Shown here one piece after another: positions 12,023 to 62,936 of a stretch of 64,000 nt of DNA. Source of the stretch: Cytophaga aurantiaca DSM 3654 (GTDB taxonomy: Bacteria; Bacteroidota; Bacteroidia; Cytophagales; Cytophagaceae). The position numbers and the translations under genes were made by a program. Position 1 is the first letter of the stretch. Every line of letters starts with the position of its first letter. The notes under the pieces are model-generated. The model ran no database searches. It saw only the letters and a list, made by a program, of their open reading frames with translations, and was not told the DNA's origin. The stretch is from NCBI RefSeq assembly GCF_000379725.1, contig NZ_KB903654.1, forward strand, positions 185,955 to 249,954, in the 5' to 3' direction.

Positions 12023-13756
12023 ATGAAAATAAAAACAAAACTAACCTTAGGCGTTGGACTGTTGTTCTTACTCATTATTTTATTGAGTGCTGTTGGAACC
12101 AGATACATCAATGCACTAAAGTCAGATACGGAAAACATTTTGGTTGCCAATTACAATTCTTTAGAGTACGCGCGTTTCATGTTGAGTTCCTTAGAAGAAC
12201 AAGGTACTGAAGCAATCTCTATGTTCGAAAATAATTTAACGAAGCAAGAAGCAAACCTAACGGAAACAGGAGAAAAAAGTGTTACGACAGAAATACGAAA
12301 TCTGTACAACCAATATAAAATCAACAGATCCGATAGTACGTTATTGCCACAGATCCGTCATGGCATTTATAAAATAATGGATCTGAATATGCAGGGAATC
12401 CAACGCAAAAGTGAGGTGGCTAAGTCTACCGCCAACAAAGCGATCTTCTGGATTGCTGTTACAGGTACACTTTGCTTTGTGATCGCATTTACCTTATTGA
12501 TCAATTTACCTTCTAACATTGCCAATCCGATCAAGGAGCTTACCGAAAGCATTCGACAGATCGCTGAAAAAAAATATTCTGAACGTGTACATTTTGAGGG
12601 CCATGATGAATTTGGAGAACTCGCCAAATCCTTTAATACCATGGCGGAGAAATTAGAAGAATACAACAGCAGCAATCTGGCAGGGCTGATGATGGAGAAA
12701 AAACGTATTGAAAGTCTTATTAACAACATGTACGACCCGGTGATCGGTCTGGACGAAAATCTAAAAATACTTTTTGCAAATGAACAAGCCATCAAAATCA
12801 TTGGCATTCCACAAGACGAACTTATCGGGCACTATACACAGGATCTTTCAATAAAAAATGATCTGGTACGAACACTTGTACAAGATCTGATGGTTGCAGA
12901 AAACACTCCGTCAAATAAAGCCATACCTATTAAAATTTATTCGAATAACAAAGAAGGGTATTTTGAAAAAGAAATCCTGCACATCTCCGTCACTCCTACC
13001 GGCGAAGAAGTCAAACAATTGATCGGCCATGTTATTATTCTACGAAATATTACGGAATACAAGGAATTGGATTTTGCTAAAACAAATTTCATTGCAACGG
13101 TTTCCCATGAATTCAAAACACCTATCTCTTCTATTAAAATGAGTTTGCAATTACTGGAAAACAAACAGGTAGGTACACTCAATGAAGAACAAACAAACTT
13201 ATTAGAAAGTATTAAAGAGGATGCCAACCGCTTGCTTAAAATCACTGGTGAACTGTTAAATATGACACAGGTTGAAAGCGGAAACATTCAGTTATCCATT
13301 CTGCCAAATGATCCGAAAGAGATTTTGATGTATGCTGTCAATGCTACAAAAACACAGGCCGAACAGAAACACATCACACTTGAGATTACATCACCGGACA
13401 ATATTCCACATGTACTTGCCGACAATGAGAAGACAGCCTGGGTGCTGATCAACTTATTATCAAATGCCATTCGCTATTCGTACGATAACTCTACCATTCA
13501 ATTATCGATTGTATCGCGTGACGATAAAGTAACAATATCTGTAAAAGATACCGGACAAGGCATCGCGTCTCAATACAAAGACAAAATATTCAACCGGTAC
13601 TTTCGTGTACCCGGAACAAAAAAAGAAGGTACCGGACTTGGCCTAGCTATCAGCAAAGAATTTATTGAAGCACAAGGCGGCTCCATCTCCGTTGACAGTG
13701 AATTTGGGAGCGGTAGCACGTTTACGATCGCTTTGCTGGTGGTCAATGGACAGTAG
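12023..13756 (+). CDS. Membrane histidine kinase (HAMP-PAS-HisKA-HATPase) of the kdp cluster
   Basis: 577 residues. Transmembrane helices at ~7-27 and ~140-160 flank a short periplasmic region; then HAMP (~163-215), PAS (~225-340), HisKA with phospho-acceptor H362 (FIATVSHEFKTP), and HATPase_c with N box (NLLSNAIRYS), DTGQGI and GTGLGLAI. It starts 2 bp after the KdpD-like gene. Its likely partners are that sensor protein and the NtrC-type regulator at 3.6 kb. The last codons (VVNGQ, stop) are built from the heptamer repeat that continues downstream, so the true ancestral C-terminus may have been rewritten. Confidence 0.92.
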   Translation: MKIKTKLTLGVGLLFLLIILLSAVGTRYINALKSDTENILVANYNSLEYARFMLSSLEEQGTEAISMFENNLTKQEANLTETGEKSVTTEIRNLYNQYKINRSDSTLLPQIRHGIYKIMDLNMQGIQRKSEVAKSTANKAIFWIAVTGTLCFVIAFTLLINLPSNIANPIKELTESIRQIAEKKYSERVHFEGHDEFGELAKSFNTMAEKLEEYNSSNLAGLMMEKKRIESLINNMYDPVIGLDENLKILFANEQAIKIIGIPQDELIGHYTQDLSIKNDLVRTLVQDLMVAENTPSNKAIPIKIYSNNKEGYFEKEILHISVTPTGEEVKQLIGHVIILRNITEYKELDFAKTNFIATVSHEFKTPISSIKMSLQLLENKQVGTLNEEQTNLLESIKEDANRLLKITGELLNMTQVESGNIQLSILPNDPKEILMYAVNATKTQAEQKHITLEITSPDNIPHVLADNEKTAWVLINLLSNAIRYSYDNSTIQLSIVSRDDKVTISVKDTGQGIASQYKDKIFNRYFRVPGTKKEGTGLGLAISKEFIEAQGGSISVDSEFGSGSTFTIALLVVNGQ

Positions 13757-13774
13757 CCAGTGGACAGTTGTCAG
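13741..13774 (+). repeat. Heptamer array overlapping the end of the histidine kinase gene
   Basis: Units TGGACAG, TAGCCAG, TGGACAG, TTGTCAG follow one another from 13747; the stop TAG (13754-13756) is the first three bases of one unit. The array enters the coding sequence. Confidence 0.75.
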
Positions 13775-13951
13775 ATAAGCGGATTACAAATCCTTTTTAT
13801 CTGGCTTCCGGATTACAAATCCGGAAGAGCTGAGGACTACTAAATGGAAAGCGGCTGTTATCACTACGCTAATACAGGCTCAGATATGTGTTTGTTTTAT
13901 TCCACAGTGAAAACCATGGTCTATGCAAATCAGTAAATTATTAAGCACGCC
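13775..13951. repeat. Palindromic repeats between kinase and YdeI genes
   Basis: The segment contains a hairpin TTCCGGATT-ACA-AATCCGGAA and a 33-bp sequence (13901-13933) with core AAAACCATGGTCTATGCAA. That sequence recurs in similar form at 35375-35407, followed there by a GCGGAT hairpin. Such palindromes resemble REP-type elements. No gene is seen here. Confidence 0.5.
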
Positions 13952-14000
13952 CTACTGACAACTTTCCATTGATTACTGACCACTGTTTACTGACAACTTA
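13952..14000 (-). repeat. Heptamer array at the 3' end of the YdeI-like gene
   Basis: Read on the minus strand, the stop TAA is followed by one base and then six 7-bp units (TTGTCAG, TAAACAG, TGGTCAG and variants). Together with the array at 13741 it forms an inverted pair flanking the gap. Confidence 0.75.
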
Positions 14001-14576
14001 AAGATGTTTCGGTTTTAAGCCTTGTGCTGCTCGTTCTACAATTTCAGTGATACGTTTTTGTCGGGTCTCTTCACGTTTGGCAGACACTACCCAGTATAGA
14101 ATCATTTTACGTACAGATTTGCTTAGACTTAAAAAATAGTCTTTAGAACCCTTGTGAGCCTTAAATGCTTTACCGAGGTCTATTGGTATGGTTAACTCTT
14201 CTACTTCGTCTAAAATGACCCAGGAACCGTTTTGTTTCGCTTTCTCAATACTCTCCAATCCTCTCTCGGTCATGAGTCCGTCTTCAATGAGCTGCAGTAC
14301 TTTCTCTTTGTTTACTTTCGACCAGGTACCTTTAGGCTTTCTCTGGCAGAAGAACTGAATAAAACTTTCTGCATCCAACGATTTACGTTTGCTGTCGATC
14401 CACCCAAAACACAAGGCCTCTTCAACTGCATCGCTCCAGCTGATGCTTGGCTTACCGGATTCTTTTTTATACAACAACAGCCACACGGATTGCTCTGAAC
14501 GATGGTATTTACTTAACCATTGCCTCCATGCTTTCCGACTCTTCGGATAAAATGTTTTTATTTCTTCTGCGCTCAT
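13998..14576 (-). CDS. YdeI/OmpD-associated family protein
   Basis: 192 residues. The N-terminal ~60-residue module (SRKAWRQWLSKYH ... ALCFGWIDSKRKSLDAESF) and the C-terminal segment with VSAKREETRQKRITEIVERAAQG are characteristic of the YdeI/OmpD-associated family, annotated in some genomes as bacteriocin-protection protein. No catalytic motif is evident. It is a single gene and probably cytoplasmic. The biochemical role is unknown. Confidence 0.85.
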   Translation of the reverse strand: MSAEEIKTFYPKSRKAWRQWLSKYHRSEQSVWLLLYKKESGKPSISWSDAVEEALCFGWIDSKRKSLDAESFIQFFCQRKPKGTWSKVNKEKVLQLIEDGLMTERGLESIEKAKQNGSWVILDEVEELTIPIDLGKAFKAHKGSKDYFLSLSKSVRKMILYWVVSAKREETRQKRITEIVERAAQGLKPKHL

Positions 14577-19689: not shown

Positions 19690-19722
19690 TGGTCAGTCAA
19701 ATACTGACAACTGACCACTAAA
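19690..19722 (-). repeat. Heptamer array after the E1 stop
   Basis: On the coding strand, TGGTCAG and TTGTCAG follow five bases after the stop triplet, then a partial inverted copy. Same family as the arrays at 32517 and 61156. Confidence 0.65.
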
Positions 19723-22131
19723 TTATTTATACCATTTCGGAAACTTGCCGGGATTTACTTCGTGCATCATTTCGTATACCATGTCGATCACATCATCCGG
19801 ACTTGGTTTTGAATAATAGTCACCGTCGGTTGAGTATGCCGGTCTGTTATCCTGTGCAGACAAGGTTCTCGGTTCTGAATCCAGATACTGCCAAGCCTTC
19901 TGTCCTTCCAATACCTGCTGCATCATATAGGCGGTTGCGCCTGCAGAGTAATCTTCATCGGCAAACAATACACGATTCGTTTTTTTGATCGACTCAACAA
20001 TCTGCTGTGTTCTATCAAACGGCAGTAATGTTTGTATATCGATGATCTCGCATGAGATACCTAATTGCTGTAATTCATTTGCACCTTCCTGCACAATACG
20101 ACACATAGAGCCGTAGGTAACAATCGTAATATCTGTGCCGGGTCTCAATACATCTATAATACCTAACTGTACCGTAAACTCTCCTAAGTTCTGTGGAAGT
20201 TTTTCTTTTAAGCGATACGCGTTTAACGATTCGATCATGATCGCCGGTTCATCGCCTTTAACCAGTGTGTTGTACATACCTGCAGCCTGTGTCATGTTGC
20301 GCGGCACGCATAAGAACATACCACGTATCGAACCCAGGATCATCTGCATCGGTGAACCCGAGTGGAACATACCTTCCAGACGGTGTCCGCGTGTACGGAT
20401 GATCAACGGAGCTTTTTGTCCGCCCGCTGAACGGTAATGCAGCGAAGCCACATCATCCGATAATATTTCTATTGCGAATAATAAATAATCTAAATACTGA
20501 ATCTCTGCAATCGGACGTAAGCCACGCATTGCAGTACCTATCGCCTGTCCAACAATGGTTGCTTCACGAATACCGGTATCGGTAATACGGATCTCACCGA
20601 ATTTATCCTGCAAACCGGAGAAGCCTTGGTTCACATCTCCTATTTGTCCTACGTCTTCACCGAAAGCCAGCAAGCGCGGATCGCGGTTGAACAGAGCTTC
20701 GAAGTTGTGTTGTAACAATTCTCTTCCGTCTAATATCGGAGAATCTTCGGTAATGATCGGTGCTACTTCAGGGACCAGCAAAGCCGACTCAACTGATTGA
20801 CTGTATAAGTGGCTATTGAAACGACGTCTGTTCTCTATTTCCGTACGTTCAGCCCAATTCTGCAAATTTTCTTTAGATCCATTCGTTTCGTTACGAAGCA
20901 AACGCAAGGCCTTCTTCACAGCCCTTACAGCATCGGAGCGGTATGGATTTAACGTTTTGTGTAATTCTATAGACAGCTGTTCCAATTCGTCTTTCACCGA
21001 ACTTGAAGAAGCAGCTTCTCTAATATATTGCACTGCCAATTCGTGATCTTCCTTAAGATAATTTACAAAATTTTCCCAGGCACGCTGACGGGCTTGTTTT
21101 ACTTTTTCAACCGACTCCGTTTCGATCTGTAGCAAATCATCTTCAGAGCAAATACCGTTTTCCAGAATCCACTCTTTAAACTTCTTATTGCAATCGTATT
21201 CTTCTTCCCAGTCCAGACGCTCTTTTGTTTTGTAGCGCTCATGAGAACCGGAAGTGGAGTGTCCCATTGGTTGAGTCATCTCACACACATGCATCAATAC
21301 AGGTACGTGCTCTTCTCTACACAAACGGGTTGCTTCTTTGTATCCATAGCAAAGCGCTTCGTAATCCCAGCCCTTTACTTTCATGATCTCAATACCACGT
21401 TCGTTGTGATCTCTTCTGAAACCTTCGAACATAGACGAGATATCATCTTTTGTAGTTTGATAGCGCTGCGGAACAGAGATCGCGTAGGCATCATCCCAGA
21501 TGGAGATGAGCATAGGAACCTGTAATACACCTGCAGCATTGATCGCTTCAAAAAATACACCTTCCGCCATGGCACCGTTTCCGATCGTTCCGAATGCAAC
21601 TTCATTTCCGTTATTGCTGAAGTTGGTCATGCTGTGCAGTTCCGGGTTGTTGCGGAATAATTTGGAAGCCCAGGCTAAACCTACCAGACGAGGCATTTGA
21701 GCACCCGTTGGAGAAATATCCGGTGTTGATACTTTTATTTTTGTCAGGTCTTTGAAACGACCTTGTTCATCTAAATTACGTGTTGAATAATGGCCGATCA
21801 TCATTCGTCCACCTGAATGCGGATCGTGCTCCACATCTGCATGACCGTATAATTGCGCAAAGTATTGTTCGATGGTCAACGCCCCTGTGGCCATCATAAA
21901 AGTCTGATCTCTATAATATCCGGAACGGAAATCACCTTCTTTAAAGAACTTCGCCATACAGATCTGCGCAAGTTCTTTCCCTGTACCAAAAATACCAAAC
22001 TTCGCCTTGCCCATGAAAACTTCCTTACGAGCAAGGATACTCGTTTGTCTGCTTTCACATGCCAGTCTATAATCTTGTAGAATTTCCTCCTTGGTCAAAG
22101 AAAACTCCCCTGTAATTTCGCTTGTATTCAA
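19723..22131 (-). CDS. Fused alpha/beta E1 component of branched-chain 2-oxoacid dehydrogenase
   Basis: 802 residues. The N-terminal ~400 are an E1-alpha thiamine-diphosphate domain (GHADVEHDPHSGGRM, FGTIGNGAMAEGVFFEA, EMTQPMGHSTSGSHERY). A linker leads to E1-beta from ~455 (LLAFGEDVGQIGDVNQGFSG, FAIEILSDDVASLHYRS, IIDIQTLLPFD). It decarboxylates branched-chain 2-oxoacids and passes the acyl group to E2 lipoyl domains; E2 and E3 are not in this window. The single-chain form is common in Bacteroidetes. Alternative substrates such as acetoin or pyruvate cannot be ruled out. Confidence 0.93.
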   Translation of the reverse strand: MNTSEITGEFSLTKEEILQDYRLACESRQTSILARKEVFMGKAKFGIFGTGKELAQICMAKFFKEGDFRSGYYRDQTFMMATGALTIEQYFAQLYGHADVEHDPHSGGRMMIGHYSTRNLDEQGRFKDLTKIKVSTPDISPTGAQMPRLVGLAWASKLFRNNPELHSMTNFSNNGNEVAFGTIGNGAMAEGVFFEAINAAGVLQVPMLISIWDDAYAISVPQRYQTTKDDISSMFEGFRRDHNERGIEIMKVKGWDYEALCYGYKEATRLCREEHVPVLMHVCEMTQPMGHSTSGSHERYKTKERLDWEEEYDCNKKFKEWILENGICSEDDLLQIETESVEKVKQARQRAWENFVNYLKEDHELAVQYIREAASSSSVKDELEQLSIELHKTLNPYRSDAVRAVKKALRLLRNETNGSKENLQNWAERTEIENRRRFNSHLYSQSVESALLVPEVAPIITEDSPILDGRELLQHNFEALFNRDPRLLAFGEDVGQIGDVNQGFSGLQDKFGEIRITDTGIREATIVGQAIGTAMRGLRPIAEIQYLDYLLFAIEILSDDVASLHYRSAGGQKAPLIIRTRGHRLEGMFHSGSPMQMILGSIRGMFLCVPRNMTQAAGMYNTLVKGDEPAIMIESLNAYRLKEKLPQNLGEFTVQLGIIDVLRPGTDITIVTYGSMCRIVQEGANELQQLGISCEIIDIQTLLPFDRTQQIVESIKKTNRVLFADEDYSAGATAYMMQQVLEGQKAWQYLDSEPRTLSAQDNRPAYSTDGDYYSKPSPDDVIDMVYEMMHEVNPGKFPKWYK

Positions 22132-23184: not shown

Positions 23185-23256
23185 CTTTTCAAAAGCGCAT
23201 AAAAAAAGTCATCCCGATAGATATCGGGATGACTTTTTTTATGCGCTTTTGAAAAG
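23185..23256. terminator. Perfect 72-bp palindrome (35-bp arms, 2-base centre)
   Basis: The arms 23185-23219 and 23222-23256 are exact reverse complements. The inner part (AAAAAAAGTCATCCCGATA and partner, with a T-run) is a standard bidirectional terminator. The outer CTTTTCAAAAGCGCAT extension makes the stem far longer than termination needs. It starts 4 bp after the DUF1573 stop. Confidence 0.85.
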
Positions 23257-23340
23257 AAATAACAAATAACAAAAAACAAATTCCAAACGGAGAGAGTATA
23301 TAGTAAGTAGTTGTCAGTGGACAGTAGTCTGTTGTCAGTG
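23256..23340 (+). repeat. Two heptamer arrays after the palindrome
   Basis: AAATAAC-type units start at ~23257, and TTGTCAG / TGGACAG-type units occupy ~23311-23339. Both read in the direction of the preceding gene. They occupy part of the 324-bp gap before ald. Confidence 0.6.
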
Positions 23341-31613: not shown

Positions 31614-31623
31614 AATGAATGTA

Positions 31624-31712
31624 GTTGCGAGGTACTAGCTGCTAGGTACTAGTATAATGGTTAAACATTTTTTATCTGGAAACTAGTAACTAGCACCTAG
31701 TAACTTATAAAA
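31624..31712. repeat. Inverted pair of xxxxTAG heptamer arrays
   Basis: Plus-strand units TTGCGAG, GTACTAG, CTGCTAG, GTACTAG (from ~31624) face minus-strand units TTACTAG, GTGCTAG, TTACTAG, TTTCCAG that follow the dcd stop. A ~25-bp AT-rich centre separates them. The pair fills almost all of the gap between dcd and the MazG-like gene. Confidence 0.75.
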
Positions 31713-32240: not shown

Positions 32241-32551
32241 ATTTTTTGAGTACTTAGTACCAAGTACAGAGTACTAAGTAAAAAGGAGTTATCTACAAAG
32301 ATACATTTTTTTCAAAGTCGAAAATGGATTGTGGATTAACTGTTGAAAGTGTTCATTACAAAACACATTCAATTAAAAATCAAATAATTAAAAGTTGATA
32401 AAGTTATAAACAAGTGTTTATGTATCGCCTGCAGCAAACCAAGTCAAATTATTTTAACCGCAAGGAACGTAAAGATAAAAACGCAAAGGGCGCAAATGAA
32501 ATCCTCCTGTAGTATACTGACCACTGTTTACTGACAACTGACAACTGACCA
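32241..32551. repeat. Repeat-bearing gap between dcd and the MFS gene
   Basis: At 32247-32282 xxGTACx-type heptamers (GAGTACT, TAGTACC, AAGTACA, GAGTACT). At 32452-32500 an AACCGCAAGGAACG...AACGCAAAGGGCGCAAA sequence resembles a repeat common in Bacteroidetes gaps. At 32517-32551 five heptamers (TGGTCAG, TTGTCAG, TTGTCAG, TAAACAG, TGGTCAG on the minus strand) start exactly after the MFS stop. Between them lies AT-rich DNA with words like TTATCTACA. No gene is seen. Confidence 0.6.
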
Positions 32552-33850
32552 CTAGTCAGGTAGCTGCGTATCATACACCTGCTTCGAAGGGATCAATCGC
32601 AGGAAGAAAATACTGATCACAAAATAAATACCCAAAGCAATTAAACTGTTGCGCATATCCCCTGTTACTTGTCGGATCAATCCATAACTAAAGGTTCCCA
32701 GTACGATCGACATTTTATCAACTACATCAAAGAAACTAAAATAGGATGCATGATCTTTTGTATTCACAGGCATCAACTTCGAATAGGTTGCACGCGATAA
32801 GGACTGCACGCCTCCCATTACAAAACCTATTGTTCCGGCCAGAATAAAGAAACTTACACCTGGCTTAACAACATACGCCATGCAGCAGATCGCGATCCAT
32901 ACAACAACCCCTGCCATCAACGCATTGGTATTCCCTACTCTATTGGATAAGATGTTCAATGCATAGGCACCTGCAATAGCAACCAGTTGAATCAACAGTA
33001 TCGTAGCGATCAATGATTCCTGTTCGATGTGTATTACTTCTTTTGCAAACAAGGGGGCCAGATACATAACAGTCTGCACACCCATATTGTAAAAGAAAAA
33101 GCCAACAAGAAAACGTTTTAACAAGGGAAGTTTCTGAATGTTCTTCCACACTTTATTCAATTCTATTAAACCATTGGTCAGCATATGCCCTGCATTATTT
33201 TTCTGCTGCACCTTCGGTAATCCCATGAAAGAGATCTGTCCGAATACAAGCCACCATACACCTACGGTTAAGAAAGCTAAACGTGCTGCAAGACTCGATG
33301 TAATCCCAATCTTTTCATGGAATACAACGCATACCAAATTGATAATTAATAACAAGACACTGCCGATATATCCCCATGTATATCCTTTAGCACTGATGCG
33401 ATCATACTGATCTTCGGTTGCAATTTCCGGTAGATAAGAATTGTAAAATACAATGCTTGAACTATAACCGATACCTGCAAGCACAAAAGCAAGTACACCA
33501 AATTCTATCGTATGTTCATTAAAAAAATATAACGCTGCACACGACACTGCACCTGTATAGCAAGACACTTTCATAAACGTTTTTTTCATTCCGGAATAAT
33601 CGGCAATGGATGTTAAAAACGGACTCAGGATTGCAGCCACTAAAAATACAATCGATACTGCCCATGAATACAAAACCGTATTCGGAATTAAAAAGCCGAA
33701 GAAGTCAACCAGATTATGATTCGCCTCGCTATTCGTGATCCCTAAAAAGTATTCAGGAAAAATTGCTGTTGTGATCGTCAGCGAATACACCGAATTAGCC
33801 CAGTCGTAAGTGCACCAGGCATTGATGATTTTAGGATCGTTTTTAATCAT
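32552..33850 (-). CDS. MFS transporter, UMF1/Atg22-like
   Basis: 432 residues, 12 predicted helices. The N-terminus (NAWCTYDWANSVYSLTITTAIFPEYF) and GGVQSLSRATYSKLMP are hallmarks of the UMF1 family (related to vacuolar Atg22 amino-acid exporters). The substrate is unknown, possibly amino acids or nucleosides. Its stop TAG (32552-32554) runs directly into a heptamer array. Confidence 0.88.
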   Translation of the reverse strand: MIKNDPKIINAWCTYDWANSVYSLTITTAIFPEYFLGITNSEANHNLVDFFGFLIPNTVLYSWAVSIVFLVAAILSPFLTSIADYSGMKKTFMKVSCYTGAVSCAALYFFNEHTIEFGVLAFVLAGIGYSSSIVFYNSYLPEIATEDQYDRISAKGYTWGYIGSVLLLIINLVCVVFHEKIGITSSLAARLAFLTVGVWWLVFGQISFMGLPKVQQKNNAGHMLTNGLIELNKVWKNIQKLPLLKRFLVGFFFYNMGVQTVMYLAPLFAKEVIHIEQESLIATILLIQLVAIAGAYALNILSNRVGNTNALMAGVVVWIAICCMAYVVKPGVSFFILAGTIGFVMGGVQSLSRATYSKLMPVNTKDHASYFSFFDVVDKMSIVLGTFSYGLIRQVTGDMRNSLIALGIYFVISIFFLRLIPSKQVYDTQLPD

Positions 33851-33977
33851 GTTATAAGTAATAAGTTTTACGTTTTAAGAAAGTAATACGTTCAATATAT
33901 TATGTTTTAAGAATGCGATTATTAAGATCTTCTGAAGCGTTTACGCTTCTTAAAACTTAATACATAAAACTTAAAAC
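33851..33977. repeat. Heptamer arrays between mtnN and the MFS gene
   Basis: On the minus strand, GTTTTAA, GTTTTAT, GTATTAA, GTTTTAA (33950-33977) begin right after the mtnN stop. On the plus strand, TATAAGT, AATAAGT, TTTACGT, TTTAAGA start next to the MFS start codon. The two arrays are inverted relative to each other and flank a ~65-bp centre. Confidence 0.7.
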
Positions 33978-34736
33978 CTATTTCATCATCCCCTCTATCA
34001 ATCCCCAGGTATAATACTTCGCAACATTTTCAATATATCGGTTGAAGTCGATGTGCGCAATTGCATTTGCTTTATCTGAGATCGAACGTACGACAACCAA
34101 CGGAACCTTATATTCATAACACACCTGTGCGACGGCCGCCCCTTCCATTTCAACGAAAATGGCATCAGGAAGTTCGGCTCTGATCTTTTCGTATTGCGGC
34201 ATGGTACCAATAAACTGATCACCGCTTACCAGCAAACCTTTGTGAACGGTTGGCTGCTGAATGTGTAAGGCTTCCAACTCTTCTTTACTTACAAAATCAT
34301 ACAGTTCTTCTTTAATAAAAGTAGAACAGCTTTTGAATGCATCTTCAACAAGGGCTGTATCACAGTTAAAAGTTGTTACATCCAGTAACGGAATTTCAAA
34401 CTGCGGAAAGATCGGACGGCAATCCATATCGTGCTGAACAGAAGAAGTTGCTACAACAATATCTCCGATCTTAACTTCATCGGTTAAACCACCTGCAACA
34501 CCTGTTACGATGATGCGGTCCACACCGAAACGTTCGATCATAACCGCTGCTGTAACCGAAGAAGCAACTTTACCGATACGGGACAAACTCACCACACTTT
34601 TCTTTCCTTGTATAGTGCCGACATAAAACTTGCGACTGCCTGTTTCAACAATATTTTCTACGTGCATATGATGCAGGATCAATTCAATCTCCTGCTGCAT
34701 CGGCACCAATATTCCGGTAATTTGTTCCTTTTCCAT
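33978..34736 (-). CDS. mtnN: 5'-methylthioadenosine/S-adenosylhomocysteine nucleosidase
   Basis: 252 residues from the ATG at 34736. Nucleosidase motifs: GILVPMQQEIELIL, VTGVAGGLTDEVKIGDIVVA, FVEMEGAAVAQVCYEYKVPLVVVRSISDKAN (ribose-binding Glu-Met-Glu). It releases adenine from MTA and SAH. An in-frame ATG at 34787 would leave only 18 bp to the divergent apt gene and add an atypical N-terminus, so the later ATG is chosen. Its product adenine is the substrate of the neighbouring APT. Confidence 0.92.
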   Translation of the reverse strand: MEKEQITGILVPMQQEIELILHHMHVENIVETGSRKFYVGTIQGKKSVVSLSRIGKVASSVTAAVMIERFGVDRIIVTGVAGGLTDEVKIGDIVVATSSVQHDMDCRPIFPQFEIPLLDVTTFNCDTALVEDAFKSCSTFIKEELYDFVSKEELEALHIQQPTVHKGLLVSGDQFIGTMPQYEKIRAELPDAIFVEMEGAAVAQVCYEYKVPLVVVRSISDKANAIAHIDFNRYIENVAKYYTWGLIEGMMK

Positions 34737-35487: not shown

Positions 35488-35991
35488 ATGATCATTAAAA
35501 ACGAATTACTTGCCGGTGTTACTATTGCTGTAGCTTCTTTTATCTGGATCTGTTTAGAATACATTATTGGATTCCACGACCGTCTGATCGATTATCATCC
35601 ATATGTTACTAATCTTGCATACATTCTTCCTGTAATTGGTGTCAACTGGGCTGTAAAGAAACGGTATGCTGCACAGACTCCGGAAGCATTTGAAATTAAA
35701 GATGGTTTAATGAGTGGTGTTATTGTTGCTGTAACTTCTGCTTTTTTGCTGTTGCCTCTTTTATGGATCTTTGTTACATATATCAATCCGGCATTTTTTG
35801 GCAACATGATTGCCGGCGCAACTAAAAAAGCACTTATGAGCGGAGATAACAGTGTGATTGCATTACAGGACGCAAAAGAATACTTTAATCTTTCTTCTTA
35901 TCTCATACAAAGCTTCACAAGCATGCTTATGCTCGGTGTATTGATCTCATTAATGGTAAGCTTCCGACTGATTAAGAAAAGAAGGAAGTAA
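35488..35991 (+). CDS. DUF4199 membrane protein
   Basis: 167 residues, four membrane helices, N-terminus MIIKNELLAGVTIAVASFIWICLE and GLMSGVIVAVTSAFLLLP typical of DUF4199 proteins, which are common and uncharacterised in Bacteroidetes. The stop TAA is followed at once by TTATGAA-type heptamers and then a bidirectional terminator. Confidence 0.85.
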   Translation: MIIKNELLAGVTIAVASFIWICLEYIIGFHDRLIDYHPYVTNLAYILPVIGVNWAVKKRYAAQTPEAFEIKDGLMSGVIVAVTSAFLLLPLLWIFVTYINPAFFGNMIAGATKKALMSGDNSVIALQDAKEYFNLSSYLIQSFTSMLMLGVLISLMVSFRLIKKRRK

Positions 35992-36073
35992 TTATGAATT
36001 ATTTGTAATAAAATAAAAAAGTCTGATTTACAATCAGACTTTTCATTCATAATTTATAACTCATAATTCATAA
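35992..36073. repeat. Inverted TTATGAA heptamer arrays around a terminator
   Basis: Plus strand: TTATGAA, TTATTTG directly after the DUF4199 stop. Minus strand: TTATGAA, TTATGAG, TTATAAA, TTATGAA (36046-36073) directly after the stop of the convergent oxidoreductase gene. Both convergent genes end in the same word, in register with TAA stops. Confidence 0.8.
36018..36042. terminator. Bidirectional terminator
   Basis: Stem AAAGTCTGATT / AATCAGACTTT with 3-base loop, A-run before and T-run after, between convergent genes. Confidence 0.85.
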
Positions 36074-37081
36074 TTAACCAGAAAGTCTCTCTAACCATCC
36101 TACCAGCTCAACCGCATCATTCAAGGATATAAGAGGTTGTGTACCCTTTCGTATCGAATCAGATACACCTTGATAAAATATACGATAATCACCCGGTAAG
36201 GTAGGATAGGTTTGTATCTGTCCATCTGCAAATTCGATCTTACCAAATTGACCGGCATCTTCAACTCCCCAATCCACTGATAAAGGCTTCTCTCCTGCAT
36301 TCAATCTCGCTTCCTGAGGATCGACACCATATTTCACATACGTACCCTTAGAACCTTTAATAACCCAGCGTGGTGTAGGTTCTTTCTCTAACATACCAGC
36401 ATGTATAGTAAATGTCATCTGATCATATTGAAACGTCACATCAACGTAATCAATACCGATCGCCCCTTTCCGTTGCTTTTTAATATCTGCTGTATAGTTT
36501 TGCGGCTGTCCGAATACGTGGAATGCCTGATCCATCAAATGCGGTCCTAAGTCATACCACAAGCCGTTTCCTAACGCATCTGATTCTTTCCAGTACGTTG
36601 TCCGCGGCTCTGGTCTGTATCGGTCGAAACGTGATTCGATTGAAAATATTTTTCCCAATACTTCTTCCTTTATTATTTTTTGAACGGTTAAAAAATCTCC
36701 ATCCCATCTCCTGTTCTGATACACAAAAATATGCTTCCCTGTTTTTAGAGAAAGTTCCAACAAACGTTTTGCATCGGATGCATATACCGTAAACGGTTTA
36801 TCTACCACAACATGTTTTCCGGCCGACAAAACCTGTGCAGCAAGCTCGGCATGCGTTTCATTGGGAGTAGTCAATACAACCAACTCAATAGCAGGATCTG
36901 AAAGTACCTCCTGAAACGTACGAACAATCTGCGCTTGCGGATAAGCCGTTGCTGCATGTTTGGGTGTACGTTCAACTATTTTTGTTAGTTCAAAAAAAGG
37001 ACTGCTTTCTATAAAAGGAGCATGTAAAAATTCTCCCGCTTTACCAAAACCCACCAATGCCGTTTTAATGCGATCCGACAT
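36074..37081 (-). CDS. Gfo/Idh/MocA family oxidoreductase
   Basis: 335 residues. N-terminal Rossmann domain (TALVGFGKAGEFLHAPFI), VVLTTPNETHAELAAQVLSAGKHVVVDKPFT (the DKP variant of EKP), and C-terminal GFO_IDH domain (NGLWYDLGPHLMDQAFHVFG). It is an NAD(P)-dependent sugar or cyclitol dehydrogenase; the substrate is not predictable. It starts 3 bp after the OmpA-like gene stop, so the pair may be co-transcribed, though the functions seem unrelated. Confidence 0.9.
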   Translation of the reverse strand: MSDRIKTALVGFGKAGEFLHAPFIESSPFFELTKIVERTPKHAATAYPQAQIVRTFQEVLSDPAIELVVLTTPNETHAELAAQVLSAGKHVVVDKPFTVYASDAKRLLELSLKTGKHIFVYQNRRWDGDFLTVQKIIKEEVLGKIFSIESRFDRYRPEPRTTYWKESDALGNGLWYDLGPHLMDQAFHVFGQPQNYTADIKKQRKGAIGIDYVDVTFQYDQMTFTIHAGMLEKEPTPRWVIKGSKGTYVKYGVDPQEARLNAGEKPLSVDWGVEDAGQFGKIEFADGQIQTYPTLPGDYRIFYQGVSDSIRKGTQPLISLNDAVELVGWLERLSG

Positions 37082-52825: not shown

Positions 52826-53611
52826 ATGATCGAACATGTTGCAGATCCAATATTGGAAATACACGATCTAACGGTTAGTTATTCAAAACGTCCAGTATTA
52901 TGGAACATTGATCTGACCTTACCTCAAGGTGTACTGGCTGGAATCATCGGTCCGAATGGTGCCGGAAAATCCACGTTGATCAAAACCGCTATGGGCCTGA
53001 TCCCTAAAGCAAGTGGTTATGTAAAATTATTCAATAAAGATCTGGAAGAAGTTCGAAAAAAAGTCAGTTATGTACCGCAACGCGAGTCTGTAGACTGGGA
53101 TTTCCCTGCTTCAGCGCTTGACGTGGTATTGATGGGACGATACGGACACGTAGGTATTTTCAAATCGCTCCGTCAGGCCGATAAAGAAGTAGCCTTGGAT
53201 TGTCTGCGTAAGGTAGGCATGGAAGCATTTGCAGACAGACAGATCTCTCAGCTTTCGGGCGGACAGCAACAGCGTGTATTCCTTGCACGAGCCCTTGCAC
53301 AGGACGCCGACCTGTATTTCATGGACGAACCCTTTGCAGGAGTAGATGCCTCAACCGAAAAAACAATCATTGCTTTATTAAAAGAAATGACGGCAAAAGG
53401 TAAGACCATCATCGTTGTACACCACGATCTGAATTCAGCAGACGAATACTTTGATTGGATCTTATTATTAAATACCAGGTTGGTAGCAAGCGGCCCGACA
53501 GAAAAAGTTTTTACCAAAGAACTGCTTCAAAAAACATACGGCGGCAAACTCAACATTCTATCCAGTGTTGGTGATCTGCTGCATAATGAACAGTTTCCAA
53601 ACAGAGAGTAG
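52826..53611 (+). CDS. Metal ABC transporter ATPase
   Basis: 261 residues. Walker A GPNGAGKST (~39), Q-loop VPQRESVDWDFP, signature LSGGQQQR, Walker B YFMDEPFAG, H-loop VVHHD. It powers the metal permeases. Stop TAG is continued by xxxxTAG heptamers. Confidence 0.95.
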   Translation: MIEHVADPILEIHDLTVSYSKRPVLWNIDLTLPQGVLAGIIGPNGAGKSTLIKTAMGLIPKASGYVKLFNKDLEEVRKKVSYVPQRESVDWDFPASALDVVLMGRYGHVGIFKSLRQADKEVALDCLRKVGMEAFADRQISQLSGGQQQRVFLARALAQDADLYFMDEPFAGVDASTEKTIIALLKEMTAKGKTIIVVHHDLNSADEYFDWILLLNTRLVASGPTEKVFTKELLQKTYGGKLNILSSVGDLLHNEQFPNRE

Positions 53612-53769
53612 TTTCTAGGTGCTAGTTACCAGTTACTAGACTGTTACAATAAACACTAGCGCCAGTCTTTGACTGGTGCTTCTCAAATACATTTCTAAAT
53701 ATTTACACTAAACACAATTCAAACTCATACTCGTCAAGAAACTAGTACCTAGCAACTGGAAACTAAAAC
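53612..53769. repeat. Inverted heptamer arrays filling the ATPase-permease gap
   Basis: Plus strand TTTCTAG, GTGCTAG, TTACCAG, TTACTAG start right after the TAG stop (53612-53639). Minus-strand TTTCCAG, TTGCTAG, GTACTAG units end next to the permease start. A CCAGTC-TTT-GACTGG hairpin lies between them. Confidence 0.8.
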
Positions 53770-55056
53770 ATGAAAGAATTAATCCGCTTCCTCCTTCTCG
53801 AAGACCCTAACGTACGTACCGTTGTGTTCGGCACCATACTGCTGAATCTCTCGGCTTCGGTAGTGGGCAGCTTTGCTTTTTTACAAAAGAAAAGTTTGTC
53901 GGGTGATGCCGTTGCGCACTCCATCCTGCCGGGCATCTGTATGGCATTCATTTTCTTTCAGACAAAATCTTTGTGGGTATTGCTTCCGGGTGCTTTTGTA
54001 ACCGGCTGGCTTTCACTTTATCTCGTTGATCTCATTTCGCGTCATTCAAAATTAAAACAGGACACGGCCATTGCGGTTGTACTCTCTGTATTCTTTGCAG
54101 TCGGAATTATCTTATTGACCTACATCCAACACTCAGGCAGCGGTGCACAGAGCGGATTGGATAGTTTCCTGTTTGGCAAAGCAGCAGCACTATTAGAAAA
54201 AGATCTGATCACTTATGCCATCATAAGCTTACTGGTAATTGGTGTAACCGTATTTTTCTTCAAAGAATTTATGCTCATCAGTTTTGATGCAACGTATGCA
54301 GGCAGCATCGGACTTCCTGTGCGTGGCTTGCAACTTGTATTAACAACCTTAACGGTGATTGCTATTGTTACCGGAATTCAATCGGTTGGTGTTGTATTGA
54401 TGTCGGCCATGTTGATTACCCCTGCAGTGGCGGCGCGCTACTGGACAGATGACCTGAAACAATTACTTATCCTTGCTGTGTTCTTCAATACCATTGCGGC
54501 CATCATGGGCGCGTATATCTCCTACCGTTACCCATCTATGCCAACAGGACCATGGATTGTAGTAGTTATTTCATTGTTTGCCTTTGCATCCATTTTGTTT
54601 GCACCTAAGAAAGGTCTTGTATACAGCATGTATCGTGTATTCAAACACAAATCCTTAATTCTGAAAGAAAACATTCTGAAAGCCTTATACCAATTGGGCG
54701 AACAGGACAATGGTTTCAGAGACACACGTGCGCTAAATAAGTTACTGGCAAAACGAAATCTTCCTTTATGGCAGGTATATCCTGCACTATACCGACTGAT
54801 GTTTGAAGGTTATCTGCAGCATACATCCAAAGGCTGGGCACTCACAAGCGAAGGCATGGAACGCGGCAAACGCATTGTACGTCTGCATCGTTTGTGGGAA
54901 ATGTATCTGTCTAAAAACTTATTGCTTGCATCCGATCACGTACACGACGATGCAGAAACCATTGAACACATCCTTACACCCGAACTGGAATCACGACTGG
55001 AAAAAAGTTTAAACTTCCCGGAAGTGGATCCGCATTCATCGAAGATACCACGATAG
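53770..55056 (+). CDS. Metal ABC permease fused to a DtxR-like domain
   Basis: 428 residues. The N-terminal ~275 are an ABC-3 permease (seven to nine helices; KKSLSGDAVAHSILPGI, GVVLMSAMLITPAVAARYW). After a linker, ~295-428 form a winged helix plus DtxR dimerisation/metal segment (LWQVYPALYRLMFEGYLQ, VHDDAETIEHILTPELESRLEKSLNFPEVDPHSSKIPR), mirroring the stand-alone regulator. Normal permeases stop near 280. The fusion may let cytoplasmic metal gate transport. I recall similar fusions in other Bacteroidetes; function is inferred. Confidence 0.92.
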   Translation: MKELIRFLLLEDPNVRTVVFGTILLNLSASVVGSFAFLQKKSLSGDAVAHSILPGICMAFIFFQTKSLWVLLPGAFVTGWLSLYLVDLISRHSKLKQDTAIAVVLSVFFAVGIILLTYIQHSGSGAQSGLDSFLFGKAAALLEKDLITYAIISLLVIGVTVFFFKEFMLISFDATYAGSIGLPVRGLQLVLTTLTVIAIVTGIQSVGVVLMSAMLITPAVAARYWTDDLKQLLILAVFFNTIAAIMGAYISYRYPSMPTGPWIVVVISLFAFASILFAPKKGLVYSMYRVFKHKSLILKENILKALYQLGEQDNGFRDTRALNKLLAKRNLPLWQVYPALYRLMFEGYLQHTSKGWALTSEGMERGKRIVRLHRLWEMYLSKNLLLASDHVHDDAETIEHILTPELESRLEKSLNFPEVDPHSSKIPR

Positions 55057-55175
55057 TTGCTAGGTACTAGCTTCTAGCTACTAGACTAAAGAATATCTAC
55101 TCATTAAAATATTATTACTATCTATGTTTACGGTCTAGCAACTGGAAACTAGCAACTGGCAACTGACCACTAAAT
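55057..55175. repeat. Inverted heptamer arrays filling the permease-permease gap
   Basis: TTGCTAG, GTACTAG, CTTCTAG, CTACTAG begin right after the TAG stop (55057-55084). At the other end minus-strand TGGTCAG, TTGCCAG, TTGCTAG, TTTCCAG, TTGCTAG abut the next start, mixing the CAG and TAG families. The centre is ~45 bp AT-rich. Confidence 0.8.
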
Positions 55176-56057
55176 ATGAACGACTTCTACATCATACTCA
55201 CCGGAATTCTTGTTGCTGTATCGTGCAGCATACTCGGAACGTTTTTGGTCTTACGGAAGATGGCCATGGTTGGCGATGCCATATCCCATGCGGTATTACC
55301 GGGCATTGTACTTTCTTTCTTTATTACAGGAAGCAGAGAATCCATCTGGATGCTGATCGGTGCAGGTCTGATGGGTGTTTTCACCACCTTGATTATTGAA
55401 TGGCTACATAAAAAAACGAAGCTGCAGGAAGATGCATCCATTGGTGTAACCTTTACGTTTTTATTTGCCTTGGGTGTATTGCTGATCAGTTACTTTGCAG
55501 AAAATATCGATCTGGATCAGGAGTGTGTACTCTATGGAGAGATCGCCTATGTGCCACTGAATACCATTATGTTATTCGGACTTGAACTTCCAAAAGCAAT
55601 TGTAATGCTTGCTGTTGTTTTGATCCTGATCACAGCCGTCATCTTTTTCTTCTATAAAGAATGGGTCATCACCACCTTTGATGCACCGTATGCTGCGTCC
55701 ATCGGTATGAGTACGGTATTGTGGAATTACATCCTGATGTCGATGGTTTCCTTTACAACCGTTGCATCCTTCGAATCCGTTGGTGCCATTTTAGTCGTTG
55801 CCTTTTTGGTTGTACCTGCTTCGGCTGCATATTTAATCACGGATTCCTTACCTAAGACGTTATTCTTCGCGGTATTATTCGGAATTATTTCTTCTGTAGC
55901 AGGTTACTATAGTGCATCTATTCTGGATGTATCCATATCCGGTGCCATGGCAACTGCAGCGGGTATTATCTTCATCATCTGTTTCATCCTGCAATGGATA
56001 CAGAAGCAGATACACACATCTCCTTCTATTTTACAAGCGGAAGAGCAAGACGTGTAA
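55176..56057 (+). CDS. Metal ABC permease (second)
   Basis: 293 residues, ABC-3 permease, about eight helices. LRKMAMVGDAISHAVLPGIVL, VGAILVVAFLVVPASAAYLIT. No DtxR extension. It probably pairs with the fused permease as a heterodimer. Last gene of the importer cluster; a MITE-like element follows 27 bp after the stop. Confidence 0.94.
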   Translation: MNDFYIILTGILVAVSCSILGTFLVLRKMAMVGDAISHAVLPGIVLSFFITGSRESIWMLIGAGLMGVFTTLIIEWLHKKTKLQEDASIGVTFTFLFALGVLLISYFAENIDLDQECVLYGEIAYVPLNTIMLFGLELPKAIVMLAVVLILITAVIFFFYKEWVITTFDAPYAASIGMSTVLWNYILMSMVSFTTVASFESVGAILVVAFLVVPASAAYLITDSLPKTLFFAVLFGIISSVAGYYSASILDVSISGAMATAAGIIFIICFILQWIQKQIHTSPSILQAEEQDV

Positions 56058-56084: not shown

Positions 56085-56310
56085 AATGTCGTTTAGTTAA
56101 GTGGAAAGATTGCTGTTGTTGGTGTTTCCGCCTGCTCCATTCTAACTTTAGTGATGAGATAACTATGCGGATCACCAACAACCCATTGTTCTCAAAATTA
56201 AGCAGCCTAGATTGTTGGTGATCTGCGCAAATGCGCTTCCTCTACCATCACATCTGTTCAGGCAGAAACACCAACAATAGCTACCAAAGTAACTTAACAA
56301 AACGACATTG
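56085..56310. mobile_element. 226-bp MITE-like element with ~50-bp terminal inverted repeats
   Basis: The ends CAATGTCGTTTAGTTAAG and CTTAACAAAACGACATTG are inverted copies (17 of 18). Similarity extends inward about 50 bp through TGTTGGTGTTTCCGCCTG. No ORF inside. A lone end copy is at 63157-63174, and core-related segments are at 19566-19637 and perhaps 14650-14717. Target-site duplication is unclear. No transposase was found in the window. Confidence 0.72.
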
Positions 56311-60836: not shown

Positions 60837-61190
60837 GTTTAAAATTAAAAATAATCATTAGAAATACTACGTTAGTATACAAAATATATTAAAAGTTTTC
60901 TTGATTTAACGCATTGGTATAACATCTCTTACGTTTTAAATACCGGATACATAATCTCGCACAACGGACCAATAAAACCAACGCTGTGGTTCAGCACGTT
61001 TATGCCCACTTCATTTAAAATATAGAAAAGAATTCAACAGGCATAAACTGCCAACCACCATTGCCAAAGCAAATAGTCGGTGACACCCGGGATATATGTA
61101 TGCGCACATTAAAATTGTGCCGGGCTAAACACCTACCATGGCGTAGAATAATTTACTGACCACTGCCCACTGTTTACTGACAACTGACCA
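60837..61190. repeat. Intergenic region with heptamer array
   Basis: 354 bp. The array at 61156-61190 (minus strand TGGTCAG, TTGTCAG, TAAACAG, TGGGCAG, TGGTCAG) begins right after the ABC exporter stop. The rest has partial palindromes (ACCAACGCTGTGGTTCAGC, GGCATAAACTGCC) but no gene. Confidence 0.6.
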
Positions 61191-62936
61191 CTAAAAATTC
61201 TTTTCCCCGATCTGCTGGCGCCACATAGCGTAGTATAATCCTTTTTCAAGCAACAGATCTTCGTGTTTGCCGGATTCAATGATATTGCCTCTTTCGAGAA
61301 CAAATATCCGATCGGCATGCATTATCGTTGATAAGCGGTGTGCAATTAATATGGTAATGTGATCTTTAACGGTTGACACCTCTCGTATCGTCTGCGTAAT
61401 TTCTTCTTCTGTAATCGAATCCAGCGAAGAGGTGGCTTCATCAAATACCAGAATGTCCGGTTGGCGGAGCAGTGCACGTGCAATCGATAAGCGTTGCTTC
61501 TCCCCTCCGGAAACCTTTACACCACCCTCGCCGATAACCGTATCCAACCCCTTATCCGCGCGGGCTAAAAGCGTTTGGCAAGCTGCTTTATGCAATACGG
61601 TTAAACAATCTTCATCCGAAGCATCGGGTTTTACAAATAATAAGTTTTCACGAATTGTTCCGGAAAACAGTTGCGTATCCTGCGTTACAAAACCAATCTT
61701 TTCACGCAGTTCATCCAGATCAATGTTGGTACTTAATACATCGTTGTACAGAATGCTACCGTCTTTAGGCGGATATAAGCCTACAAGCAGTTTTACCAAA
61801 GTGGTTTTACCGGATCCGGATGGACCAACAAATGCGATGGTTTGTCCGTTCTGTGTTGAGAAAGAAATACCATTGAGTGCATTGCTGTGGGCGGATTGAT
61901 GTTTGAAACCAACGTTATCAAAACGTAAAGTTTTTATCTGGCCAATTGTTTGCGGATGCTCGGGTTTAACCTCTTTCGGTAAATTTAATATGCGATCAAA
62001 ATTTAAAAGAGATACTTCCGCTTCTCTGTATGCAATGATTACATTTCCCAATTCCTGTAGGGGACCAAATAAGAAGAAGGAATAAAACAAAAACGTAAAA
62101 TACTTACCCGGTGATAATTCGTTATCAAAAATAAGCAGCAGTAAAATTACAACCATGACACTCCGTATAAAATTTACGGTTGTGCCTTGCAAAAAACTCA
62201 TGCTTCTTACGTACTTGACTTTTTTAAGCTCCAGGTCAAGAATTTTGTATGTTGTGTTGTTCAACCGTTCAATCTCCTGATTGGCAAGTCCAAGACTTTT
62301 CACCAATTCGATGTTGCGCAGTGATTCAGTAGTAGAACCGGCAAGAGCCGTCGTTTCTTTTACAATACTTTTTTGTACAACTTTTATTTTACGGCTCAAC
62401 AGCCAGCTTGTAAAAGCGATAATGGGTACTGCAGCAAAGTATACCAGCGTAACTTTATAACTTACCGATAAGGAATAAACGACTACAAAGATCAACCCGA
62501 CTACACTTGAGAATAATACGCTGATAAAAGAGGTAATAAACTTTTCAGAATCCGTGCGTACCTTTTGAAGTATGCCTAAGGTCTCTCCGCTTCGTTGGTC
62601 TTCAAAGGTCTGATAAGGCAGTTCTAAGGAATGTTTCAAGCCATCGGCATACATCCTGGCCCCTAGCTTCTGAACAACGATACTGGTGAAGTAATCCTGA
62701 AGATTTTTAGCAATACGGGAAACCATCGCTGCACCAATGGCTAAACCAACAAGAAACAAAATACCTTTGATAAACGCCTCCCGTGAAAGGACATCCTTCT
62801 TTTCTATAAAATTATCTACAATTTTACCTGTAATGTGCGGGTCCAATAAAGAAAAAACCTGGCTTGTAGAAGCCAGCAACAAAGCAATTGCAATAAGGCC
62901 TTTATAATTCTTTAGGTAATTCAGTAATAATTTCAT
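61191..62936 (-). CDS. ABC exporter (fused permease-ATPase, MsbA-like)
   Basis: 581 residues. Six-helix transmembrane domain (~1-310), ATPase with Walker A VGPSGSGKTTLVKLL, Q-loop VTQDTQLF, signature VSGGEKQRLS, Walker B ILVFDEATSSLDS, H-loop LIAHRLST. Exports lipids, drugs or peptides as a homodimer or heterodimer; the substrate is unknown. Single gene. Stop TAG is in register with the following heptamer array. Confidence 0.93.
   Translation of the reverse strand: MKLLLNYLKNYKGLIAIALLLASTSQVFSLLDPHITGKIVDNFIEKKDVLSREAFIKGILFLVGLAIGAAMVSRIAKNLQDYFTSIVVQKLGARMYADGLKHSLELPYQTFEDQRSGETLGILQKVRTDSEKFITSFISVLFSSVVGLIFVVVYSLSVSYKVTLVYFAAVPIIAFTSWLLSRKIKVVQKSIVKETTALAGSTTESLRNIELVKSLGLANQEIERLNNTTYKILDLELKKVKYVRSMSFLQGTTVNFIRSVMVVILLLLIFDNELSPGKYFTFLFYSFFLFGPLQELGNVIIAYREAEVSLLNFDRILNLPKEVKPEHPQTIGQIKTLRFDNVGFKHQSAHSNALNGISFSTQNGQTIAFVGPSGSGKTTLVKLLVGLYPPKDGSILYNDVLSTNIDLDELREKIGFVTQDTQLFSGTIRENLLFVKPDASDEDCLTVLHKAACQTLLARADKGLDTVIGEGGVKVSGGEKQRLSIARALLRQPDILVFDEATSSLDSITEEEITQTIREVSTVKDHITILIAHRLSTIMHADRIFVLERGNIIESGKHEDLLLEKGLYYAMWRQQIGEKNF

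Follow-up and report, generated by a model that had tools for sequence, protein, structure and literature searches.

Heptamer arrays at gene 3′ ends of Cytophaga keep their intergenic sites between species while their unit family often differs

We analysed a stretch of 64,000 nucleotides (nt) from Cytophaga aurantiaca DSM 3654, referred to below as the window (contig C35:185955-249954 of a 4.42-Mb genome designated G000), for arrays of 7-base units that lie in the gaps between genes. The arrays first noticed lie in a metal-importer operon, which codes for a DtxR-type repressor with a FeoA domain, a ZnuA-type binding protein, an ABC ATPase and two ABC-3 permeases. Two gaps of this operon bear arrays: gap 1 behind the ATPase gene (52826-53611) and gap 2 behind the first permease gene. 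The latter gene (53770-55056) codes for a fusion of an ABC-3 permease with a DtxR-type metal-binding domain, alongside the separate DtxR-type repressor of the operon. Both gaps contain inverted arrays, of TTNCTAG type on the left and of CTAGNAA type on the right, the left arms standing directly behind the stop codon and the right arms ending 2-3 nt ahead of the next start. In gap 1, the TAG stop codon on the plus strand (53609-53611) is followed by the left arm (53612-53641; TTTCTAG GTGCTAG TTACCAG TTACTAG AC), a spacer holding the hairpin GCGCCAGTCTTTGACTGGTGC (53642-53732) and the right arm (53733-53766; GTCAAGAAACTAGTACCTAGCAACTGGAAACTAA), 3 nt from the ATG at 53770. In gap 2, the left arm (55057-55086) immediately follows the TAG at 55054-55056, the spacer (55087-55132) is AT-rich, and the right arm (55133-55173) consists of six units beginning with GTCTAG, 2 nt from the ATG at 55176. 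Coordinates and unit sequences thus bear out the original prediction, made from the bare sequence, that both gaps are two-ended inverted heptamer arrays. The gap 1 spacer showed no resemblance to other spacers of this unit family (CTAG) at E 0.01.

For both importer gaps a long stem is predicted in the transcript, in line with the earlier suggestion that the arrays possibly fold the mRNA. The predicted fold of gap 1 reached −47.1 kcal/mol (z −7.3) and that of gap 2 −33.4 kcal/mol (z −4.3), and in neither case was any of 200 shuffled sequences as good. Both predicted stems start at the stop codon, that of the ATPase gene pairing at the base of its stem, and end 4 nt (gap 1) or 10 nt (gap 2) before the next start codon. 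Neither gap holds a terminator-like site, defined by a GC-rich stem, a short loop and a T-run.

To score periodicity we counted 28-nt windows with at least 20 matches at a given lag. The 64-kb window contains 11 array peaks at lag 7, none at lags 4-6 and 8-10, and one each at lags 11 and 12. Three Cytophaga species were compared in all, the genus-mates being G001 (a single contig of 4,433,218 bp) and G002. Larger samples comprised 650 kb of G000, 275 kb of G001 and 279 kb of G002. They contained 50, 14 and 26 lag-7 arrays, respectively; any other lag in the range 4-12 gave 3-9, 0-3 and 1-3. A detector for seven unit families, derived from units observed in these same genomes, reported 82, 29 and 51 arrays in the three species, against 5, 3 and 5 in shuffled and 15, 6 and 12 in reversed sequence. 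In 156 gaps it fired in 1 + 1 shuffled and 11 + 6 reversed gaps; the latter are probably in part real arrays read backwards. The control figures on reversed gaps come from this version only and not from its eight-family successor. Arrays of such 7-base units are present in about one quarter of the intergenic gaps sampled in C. aurantiaca and its sister species.

At least eight unit families occur across the genus. Read outward from the gap centre, their units are ACTAGNA/ACTGGNA (CTAG family), ACTTAAA/ACTTATT (TTAA), ACTCNGT/ACTTAGT (GTAC), ACTGACC/ACTGTTT (CTGA), ACTTTAC (TTTAC), ATTCATA (TCATAA), AGCNTTA (GCTTAA) and ATTTGGA/ATTTGTT (TTTG), so that an ACT register is common to five of the eight. 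The GCTTAA and GTAC units are nearly self-complementary, which makes arm direction less certain for these two. The families are discrete in all three genomes and differ in abundance by species (chi-square p 8e-8). By eye, the inner arm end is near-constant within several of them (GTCTAG in CTAG, TCTTAAAAC in TTAA, CCGTTTGG in TTTG); since both arms start with the same inner end, we infer that each pair was originally one palindrome.

Orientation follows a simple rule. Among 64 pairs of neighbouring arrays lying no more than 450 bp apart, 44 face outward, 13 + 6 point in the same direction and one faces inward, this sole exception being formed by the arrays that flank the RNase P RNA gene. Both members of an outward pair belong to one family in 36 of the 44, compared to 12.6 expected by within-genome permutation (maximum 25 in 5000 runs). 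Left and right arrays are therefore not independent of each other, which supports this part of the original interpretation. When collinear occupied gaps were considered (n = 110), 58 were two-sided, 51 of these with matched families. The spacers of different loci are unrelated: in a set of 51, three pairs had a short match, and one of these three was a true ortholog. Terminator-like hairpins, by a crude definition of our own, occur in the spacers of 19 of the 58 two-sided gaps. Known hairpin repeats were rejected as regular spacers, because only 9 of 52 matches lay between outward arms.

We then located the arrays relative to genes, taken as open reading frames (ORFs) that had a reciprocal match in one of the sister genomes, exclusive of RNA genes. 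Arrays occupy 84 of the 273 co-directional and 16 of the 52 convergent gaps. Of the 112 divergent gaps, 7 hold one, and one of these seven is really the 3′ end of the RNase P RNA. Divergent gaps are thus depleted (7/112 compared to 100/325 for the others), and the similar occupancy of convergent and co-directional gaps does not support the inside of operons, proposed at first, as the defining place of the arrays. In 87 co-directional gaps, the array block lay within 12 nt of the stop codon in 65 and within 12 nt of the start codon in 37, where random placement inside each gap would give 39.1 for either side. The nearer side was the stop in 62 and the start in 24, at median distances of −1 nt and 18 nt, respectively. 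This stop-side excess demonstrates that the arrays are anchored to gene 3′ ends; in convergent gaps, the arms stand at the ends of opposite genes. The proposal that the element is sized to fill its gap is not supported by these figures, the arms being at the stop and not at the start, nor by the lack of relation between spacers of different loci.

A role in translational safety, whereby heptamers bearing stop codons would close all frames within three units at both gene ends, might be considered. Arms of 28 nt read from the gene inward do close three frames more often than shuffled ones (0.32 compared to 0.13). Frames are, however, seldom closed by arms of the GTAC (0.04), TTTG (0.06), CTGA (0.17) and GCTTAA (0.19) families. 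With four of the seven families tested failing in this way, all-frame stop codons were rejected as a general function, and we consider this explanation highly improbable.

Comparison between species was limited to collinear gaps of 30-600 nt, which retained 156 of 299 adjacent G000-G001 gaps. In a set of 157 such gaps, 113 had an array in neither genome, 13 in G000 only, 2 in G001 only and 29 in both (Fisher p 3e-19). The association was also found in the 62 non-divergent gaps measuring 75-300 bp in both genomes (36 neither, 5 + 1 single, 20 both; p 1e-10), with the seven-family detector (156 gaps: 115 neither, 14 + 5 single, 22 both; p 5e-13) and with an earlier strict detector (67 gaps: 52 neither, 6 + 3 single, 6 both; p 6e-4). 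Permutation within strata of orientation and length gave a mean of 15.0 co-occupied gaps and a maximum of 23 in 5000 runs, compared to the 29 observed.

The unit family at a co-occupied site is often a different one. Importer gap 1 holds CTAG arrays in G000, a GCTTAA type in G001 and CATAATT units in G002, and gap 2 holds CTAG, a GCTTAA type and a one-sided TTTG type, respectively. With the slightly different array boundaries used for counting shared families (156 gaps: 112 neither, 14 + 3 single, 27 both), 18 of the 27 co-occupied G000-G001 gaps have no family in common and 9 share one. This sharing exceeds the 4.1 obtained by permutation (p 0.006), as expected if a few elements are retained true orthologs. 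Comparisons with G002 cover fewer gaps; between G000 and G002, 7 of 10 co-occupied gaps lack a common family (p 4e-4 for co-occurrence, seven-family detector). The original prediction of a discrete element whose presence or absence varies between strains is therefore upheld in part, 17 of the 44 occupied G000/G001 gaps being occupied in a single genome; the other 27 are occupied in both. Neither plain presence/absence nor gradual drift, the two outcomes foreseen for sister strains, describes the pattern: arrays persist at the site, frequently with one family in place of another.

Identity at fourfold sites between G000 and G001 is 0.46, which means that unconstrained DNA is nearly randomised and that arrays intact in both genomes have been either maintained or recently renewed. 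Among same-family, same-side orthologous arms, 7 of 23 were more alike than every random arm of their family, and six of these seven agreed at 25-28 of 28 bases, which despite that divergence speaks for constraint on the retained arms. Directly behind the RNase P RNA (C35:175777), the two arms retain 27 and 25 of 28 bases between G000 and G001. The two clearest retained TTAA elements have arms that differ by point changes, with a constant number of units. The RNase P RNA gene itself (locus L026, 15430-15835) has a heptad-array pair on each side; its downstream arms differ from those of G001 by point changes only, and the upstream pair is of a different family in G001.

We tentatively favour the reading that the arrays are stop-anchored palindromic modules of gene 3′ ends, in which the slot is kept and the unit family is exchangeable. 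A module would be a pair of arms of about 4-6 heptamers each, laid down at the DNA level as one outward-facing palindrome from the stop codon, and its centre could later be filled by a spacer, by other repeats or by a second heptamer palindrome. Different species would retain the slot because an array that is anchored to the stop and can form a stem is tolerated or of use at that position, and whole modules might be exchanged for modules of another family. In co-directional gaps, the most likely role is that the transcript would fold into a long, irregular stem that runs from the stop codon almost to the following start; this would hold the spacer out of the way and could shield the two cistrons or keep them separate. 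RNA folding would then be a consequence of the palindrome and a possible benefit. In convergent gaps, each mRNA would receive the same sense-orientation array directly behind its stop codon. A broader and slightly more tentative proposition is that the arrays represent a sequence-agnostic class of cis-elements, whose form (period, inversion and anchoring) would be inherited and selected in particular gaps over evolutionary time, any of at least eight heptamer dialects being able to fill the slot and the letters being exchanged wholesale.

Several observations weigh against exchangeable modules of this kind. Families are mixed in 7 of the 58 two-sided gaps, and 52 of the 110 occupied gaps have an array on one side only, a count that is an upper bound since the near-self-complementary GCTTAA and GTAC units sometimes led both arms to be given one direction, as happened to both GCTTAA importer-type arms of G001. 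A relaxed search for weak partners of one-sided arrays gave no significant excess (17 better, 10 worse, 15 tied; p 0.25). In convergent gaps, families matched in all nine pairs though the arms serve opposite genes, and a terminator-like hairpin stood between them in five; matching thus needs no RNA stem and probably arises at the DNA level. Between G001 and G002, families differ in only 4 of 9 co-occupied gaps (co-occurrence p 0.009, seven-family detector), and for 16 of the 23 orthologous arms of one family, some random arm of that family is at least as similar. Where the family was swapped, the spacers of orthologous gaps show no evident relation (mean z 0.52 compared to 0.22 for random ones), as expected of any neutral DNA at this divergence. 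A systematic search beyond the present arms for remnants of the family found in the other species did not surpass its inward control in 96 cases (35 better, 31 worse, 30 tied). Set against third families, 54 cases were better and 38 were worse. Replacement by nesting is thus not demonstrated. Four loci with remnants suggestive by eye (g1c 111954, g1b 110977, the right end of g0_C24 84698 and the left end of gap 1 in G002) were not counted as evidence.

Finally, arms within a locus are no more complementary than arms of the same family from other loci. Mean likeness (of 28) within loci and between random arms was 21.3 and 21.5 for CTAG, 20.7 and 22.0 for TTAA, 19.0 and 18.8 for GTAC, 18.0 and 17.7 for CTGA, 18.3 and 17.6 for GCTTAA (3 pairs) and 25.2 and 23.9 for TCATAA (p 0.10); only TTTG differed, with 24.0 and 21.2 (p 0.02). 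TTTG excepted, this test does not indicate that the two arms of a locus co-evolved to pair, nor that one arm was copied from the other. The latter result bears on the possibility that the arrays are a neutral by-product of replication, 7-nt slippage building them, template switching at hairpins inverting copies and their positions being merely inherited. Slippage would account for arrays that are long and near-perfect, such as CATAATT ×16 and ×17. Template switching, in contrast, predicts the within-locus likeness that is seen for TTTG alone, and the families are discrete and common to several species. The constant unit number of the two retained TTAA elements does not fit slippage either, and sites kept with a changed family at near-saturated neutral divergence are hard to obtain by inheritance alone. 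We consider this explanation improbable.

Nearly as likely as the stop-anchored modules that we favour, and likewise tentative, is a selfish origin, in which the miniature palindromes would be several non-autonomous mobile families that insert preferentially at gene 3′ ends and into each other's centres and need no host benefit, co-occupied sites being hot spots. Discrete families with species-specific abundance would suit such elements, and so would nesting: families are stacked in some gaps (13 stacks), with CTAG outside GTAC in all seven stacks of these two (at five loci) and never the reverse, and complete nested palindromes are present in G002 and G000. The rarity of arrays in promoter gaps is what selection against damage would leave, and all three genomes carry Y1 transposase genes. 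Against a selfish origin, spacers are not shared within a family, unlike in miniature inverted-repeat transposable elements, whose copies share interiors. No target duplication was seen, though no systematic search for one was made, and remnants of a replaced family are no better than the control. Of the six Y1 transposase loci examined, three have a heptad array; these three arrays belong to different families, and one of them sits at the edge of its locus. Two of the six carry a different palindrome, GGGGCGATGCCCC. Transposases of the RAYT type (associated with repetitive extragenic palindromic, or REP, sequences) were consequently rejected as the driver, there being no consistent link to the heptad arrays. 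Copies of GGGGCGATGCCCC surround RAYT-sized Y1-transposase genes at loci L138 and L140 and are likely to represent a REP/RAYT system of Cytophaga.

Several known repeats resemble the arrays in part. The paired REP elements called REPINs (Bertels and Rainey 2011, PMC3116915) are likewise intergenic inverted doublets with a spacer and a predicted hairpin, and Cytophaga has Y1 transposase genes. REPIN ends are REP sequences, whereas the arms in Cytophaga are heptad arrays of at least eight families around unrelated spacers.

TAACTGA repeats (MacGregor 2015, PMC4679880) share with the arrays a 7-nt intergenic unit and a start-ward orientation, and in its cyclic form ACTGATA the unit has the ACT register of five of the eight Cytophaga families. 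Five Bacteroidetes are among the carriers, and in F. litoralis one set is reversed directly behind a stop codon. The published repeats, however, have one unit, mostly in one-sided direct repeats just upstream of starts, with one inverted case in BOGUAY, whereas Cytophaga has at least eight families, many two-sided outward pairs, anchoring to stops and a family that differs between species at a given gap. Most TAACTGA sets lie within a few nt upstream of starts; start-side distances in Cytophaga are close to random. Neither strand of the window contains a TAACTGA dimer, and the unit families are different. As proposed for TAACTGA, single heptamers might be sites of an RNA-binding regulator near starts or stops, families corresponding to different regulons. 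The right arms share the orientation of the TAACTGA sets towards the start codon, and the reversed set behind a stop offers a parallel within Bacteroidetes. The 18 of 27 co-occupied gaps without a common family would nevertheless imply wholesale regulon rewiring, and the arms are anchored to stops rather than starts, which makes a regulator quite unlikely.

The closest precedent for the exchange of unit classes in one slot is the P6b stem of the Nostoc tRNA-Leu intron (Kaasalainen 2015, PMC4476775), which is built of seven-nucleotide repeats on both sides. Units of Class I (TDNGATT) or Class II (NNTGAGT) occupy orthologous sites there, from which repeated replacement and equal function were inferred; by our own reading, the 3′ arm of Class II would read ACTCANN, like the outward arms of Cytophaga. 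Here too, heptamers on both sides form a stem in the predicted folds of the importer gaps, and different classes are found at orthologous sites. The two differ in that P6b is one locus with two classes in a cyanobacterial self-splicing intron, compared to tens of intergenic loci and at least eight families in Cytophaga; the importer gaps lie between protein genes, and the window contains no Rfam family at gathering score. The heptameric repeats of Xanthomonas and Nostoc (PMC4692102) are also intergenic, with inverted repeats noted, and in Xanthomonas most of them are flanked by the same genes in two species while varying in length and sequence. Their units are G-rich and form G-quadruplexes, whereas the arms in Cytophaga are AT-rich and often paired outward. 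Heptamer repeats and two-class heptamer stems are thus already known elsewhere, and the Cytophaga arrays are a variation on that theme. The literature examined, mostly exclusive of subscription papers, yielded no report of heptad arrays in Cytophaga, which does not prove absence, and no description of genome-wide, stop-anchored heptamer pairs that swap families.

All three members of the genus show the CTAG pattern, which was absent from the 16 other genomes of the same family searched. Across the order, 25 of 390 genomes matched, 22 of them outside the genus, compared to five for a backward control; among the places listed, 14 of these 22 showed perfect tandem copies only and 8 showed mixed units. 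The genome of locus L124 (G141:C10), from another family, has 141 CTAG-pattern hits, mostly long CTAGAAA runs among the places listed. Outward inverted heptad pairs with ACTG, ATTC and AGC units were recognised by eye in two genomes from two other families (G344 and G107), with 2 of 3 and 2 of 4 neighbour pairs inverted, in stretches that were chosen for holding arrays and not at random; in G344, lags 6, 7 and 8 were about equally frequent (13, 11 and 11). A comparison of generic lag-7 profiles yielded few pairs. In 17 stretches picked regardless of arrays (311 kb), six peaks were found at lag 7 and 1-4 at other lags, a run of N adding one to each.

The role and origin of bacterial heptamer repeats are unsettled in the literature examined. 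In Cytophaga, the arrays are common, often paired, oriented, anchored to stops and kept in place while their sequence is often replaced, at near-saturated neutral divergence. What is conserved (site, period, inversion) can thus be separated from what is not (the letters), which makes origin and function directly testable, and conserved intergenic elements of this type would be missed by sequence alignment alone. The genus includes C. hutchinsonii, a cultivated gliding cellulose degrader.

Within the window, the two-ended inverted heptad design was recovered at all four further places named by the original prediction, one of them of the CTAG family like the importer gaps and three of other families. 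The CTAG pair (31619-31653 and 31675-31709) lies between two minus-strand genes, and the orthologous gap of G001 has a GTAC-family pair. At 33853-33982 (TTTTAAG/CTTAAAA), the arms belong to the TTAA family (33853-33880 and 33948-33982, the latter beginning with TCTTAAAAC). In the convergent gap at 35989-36076 (AATTATG/CATAATT), the left arm (35989-36015) was recognised as an inverted repeat but fell below the threshold of the family detector; between it and the right arm (36045-36072) lies a hairpin with A-run and T-run flanks (36016-36043) that by eye resembles a bidirectional terminator. In the convergent gap at 13741-14009 (TGGACAG/ACTGACC), the left CTGA-family arm (13741-13775) includes the stop codon of ORF 12023-13756 and the right arm spans 13954-14009. 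A mixed-family gap (32245-32557) combines a left GTAC arm (32245-32286) with a right CTGA arm (32516-32557), no array being detected in the orthologous gap of the sister genome. Arrays without a detected partner are found at 2179-2234, 19703-19723 and 61155-61203, the last of the CTGA family. At 23254-23339, a left-facing TTTG array is followed by a left-facing CTGA array, and directly adjoining this stack is a terminator-like inverted repeat, perfect over 35 bp around a centre of 2 nt (23185-23256). At 56112-56281, the repeat GCTGTTGTTGGTGTTTCCGCC occurs in inverted copies; it is also present in spacers of loci L058 and L068 and represents a separate dispersed repeat of the genus.
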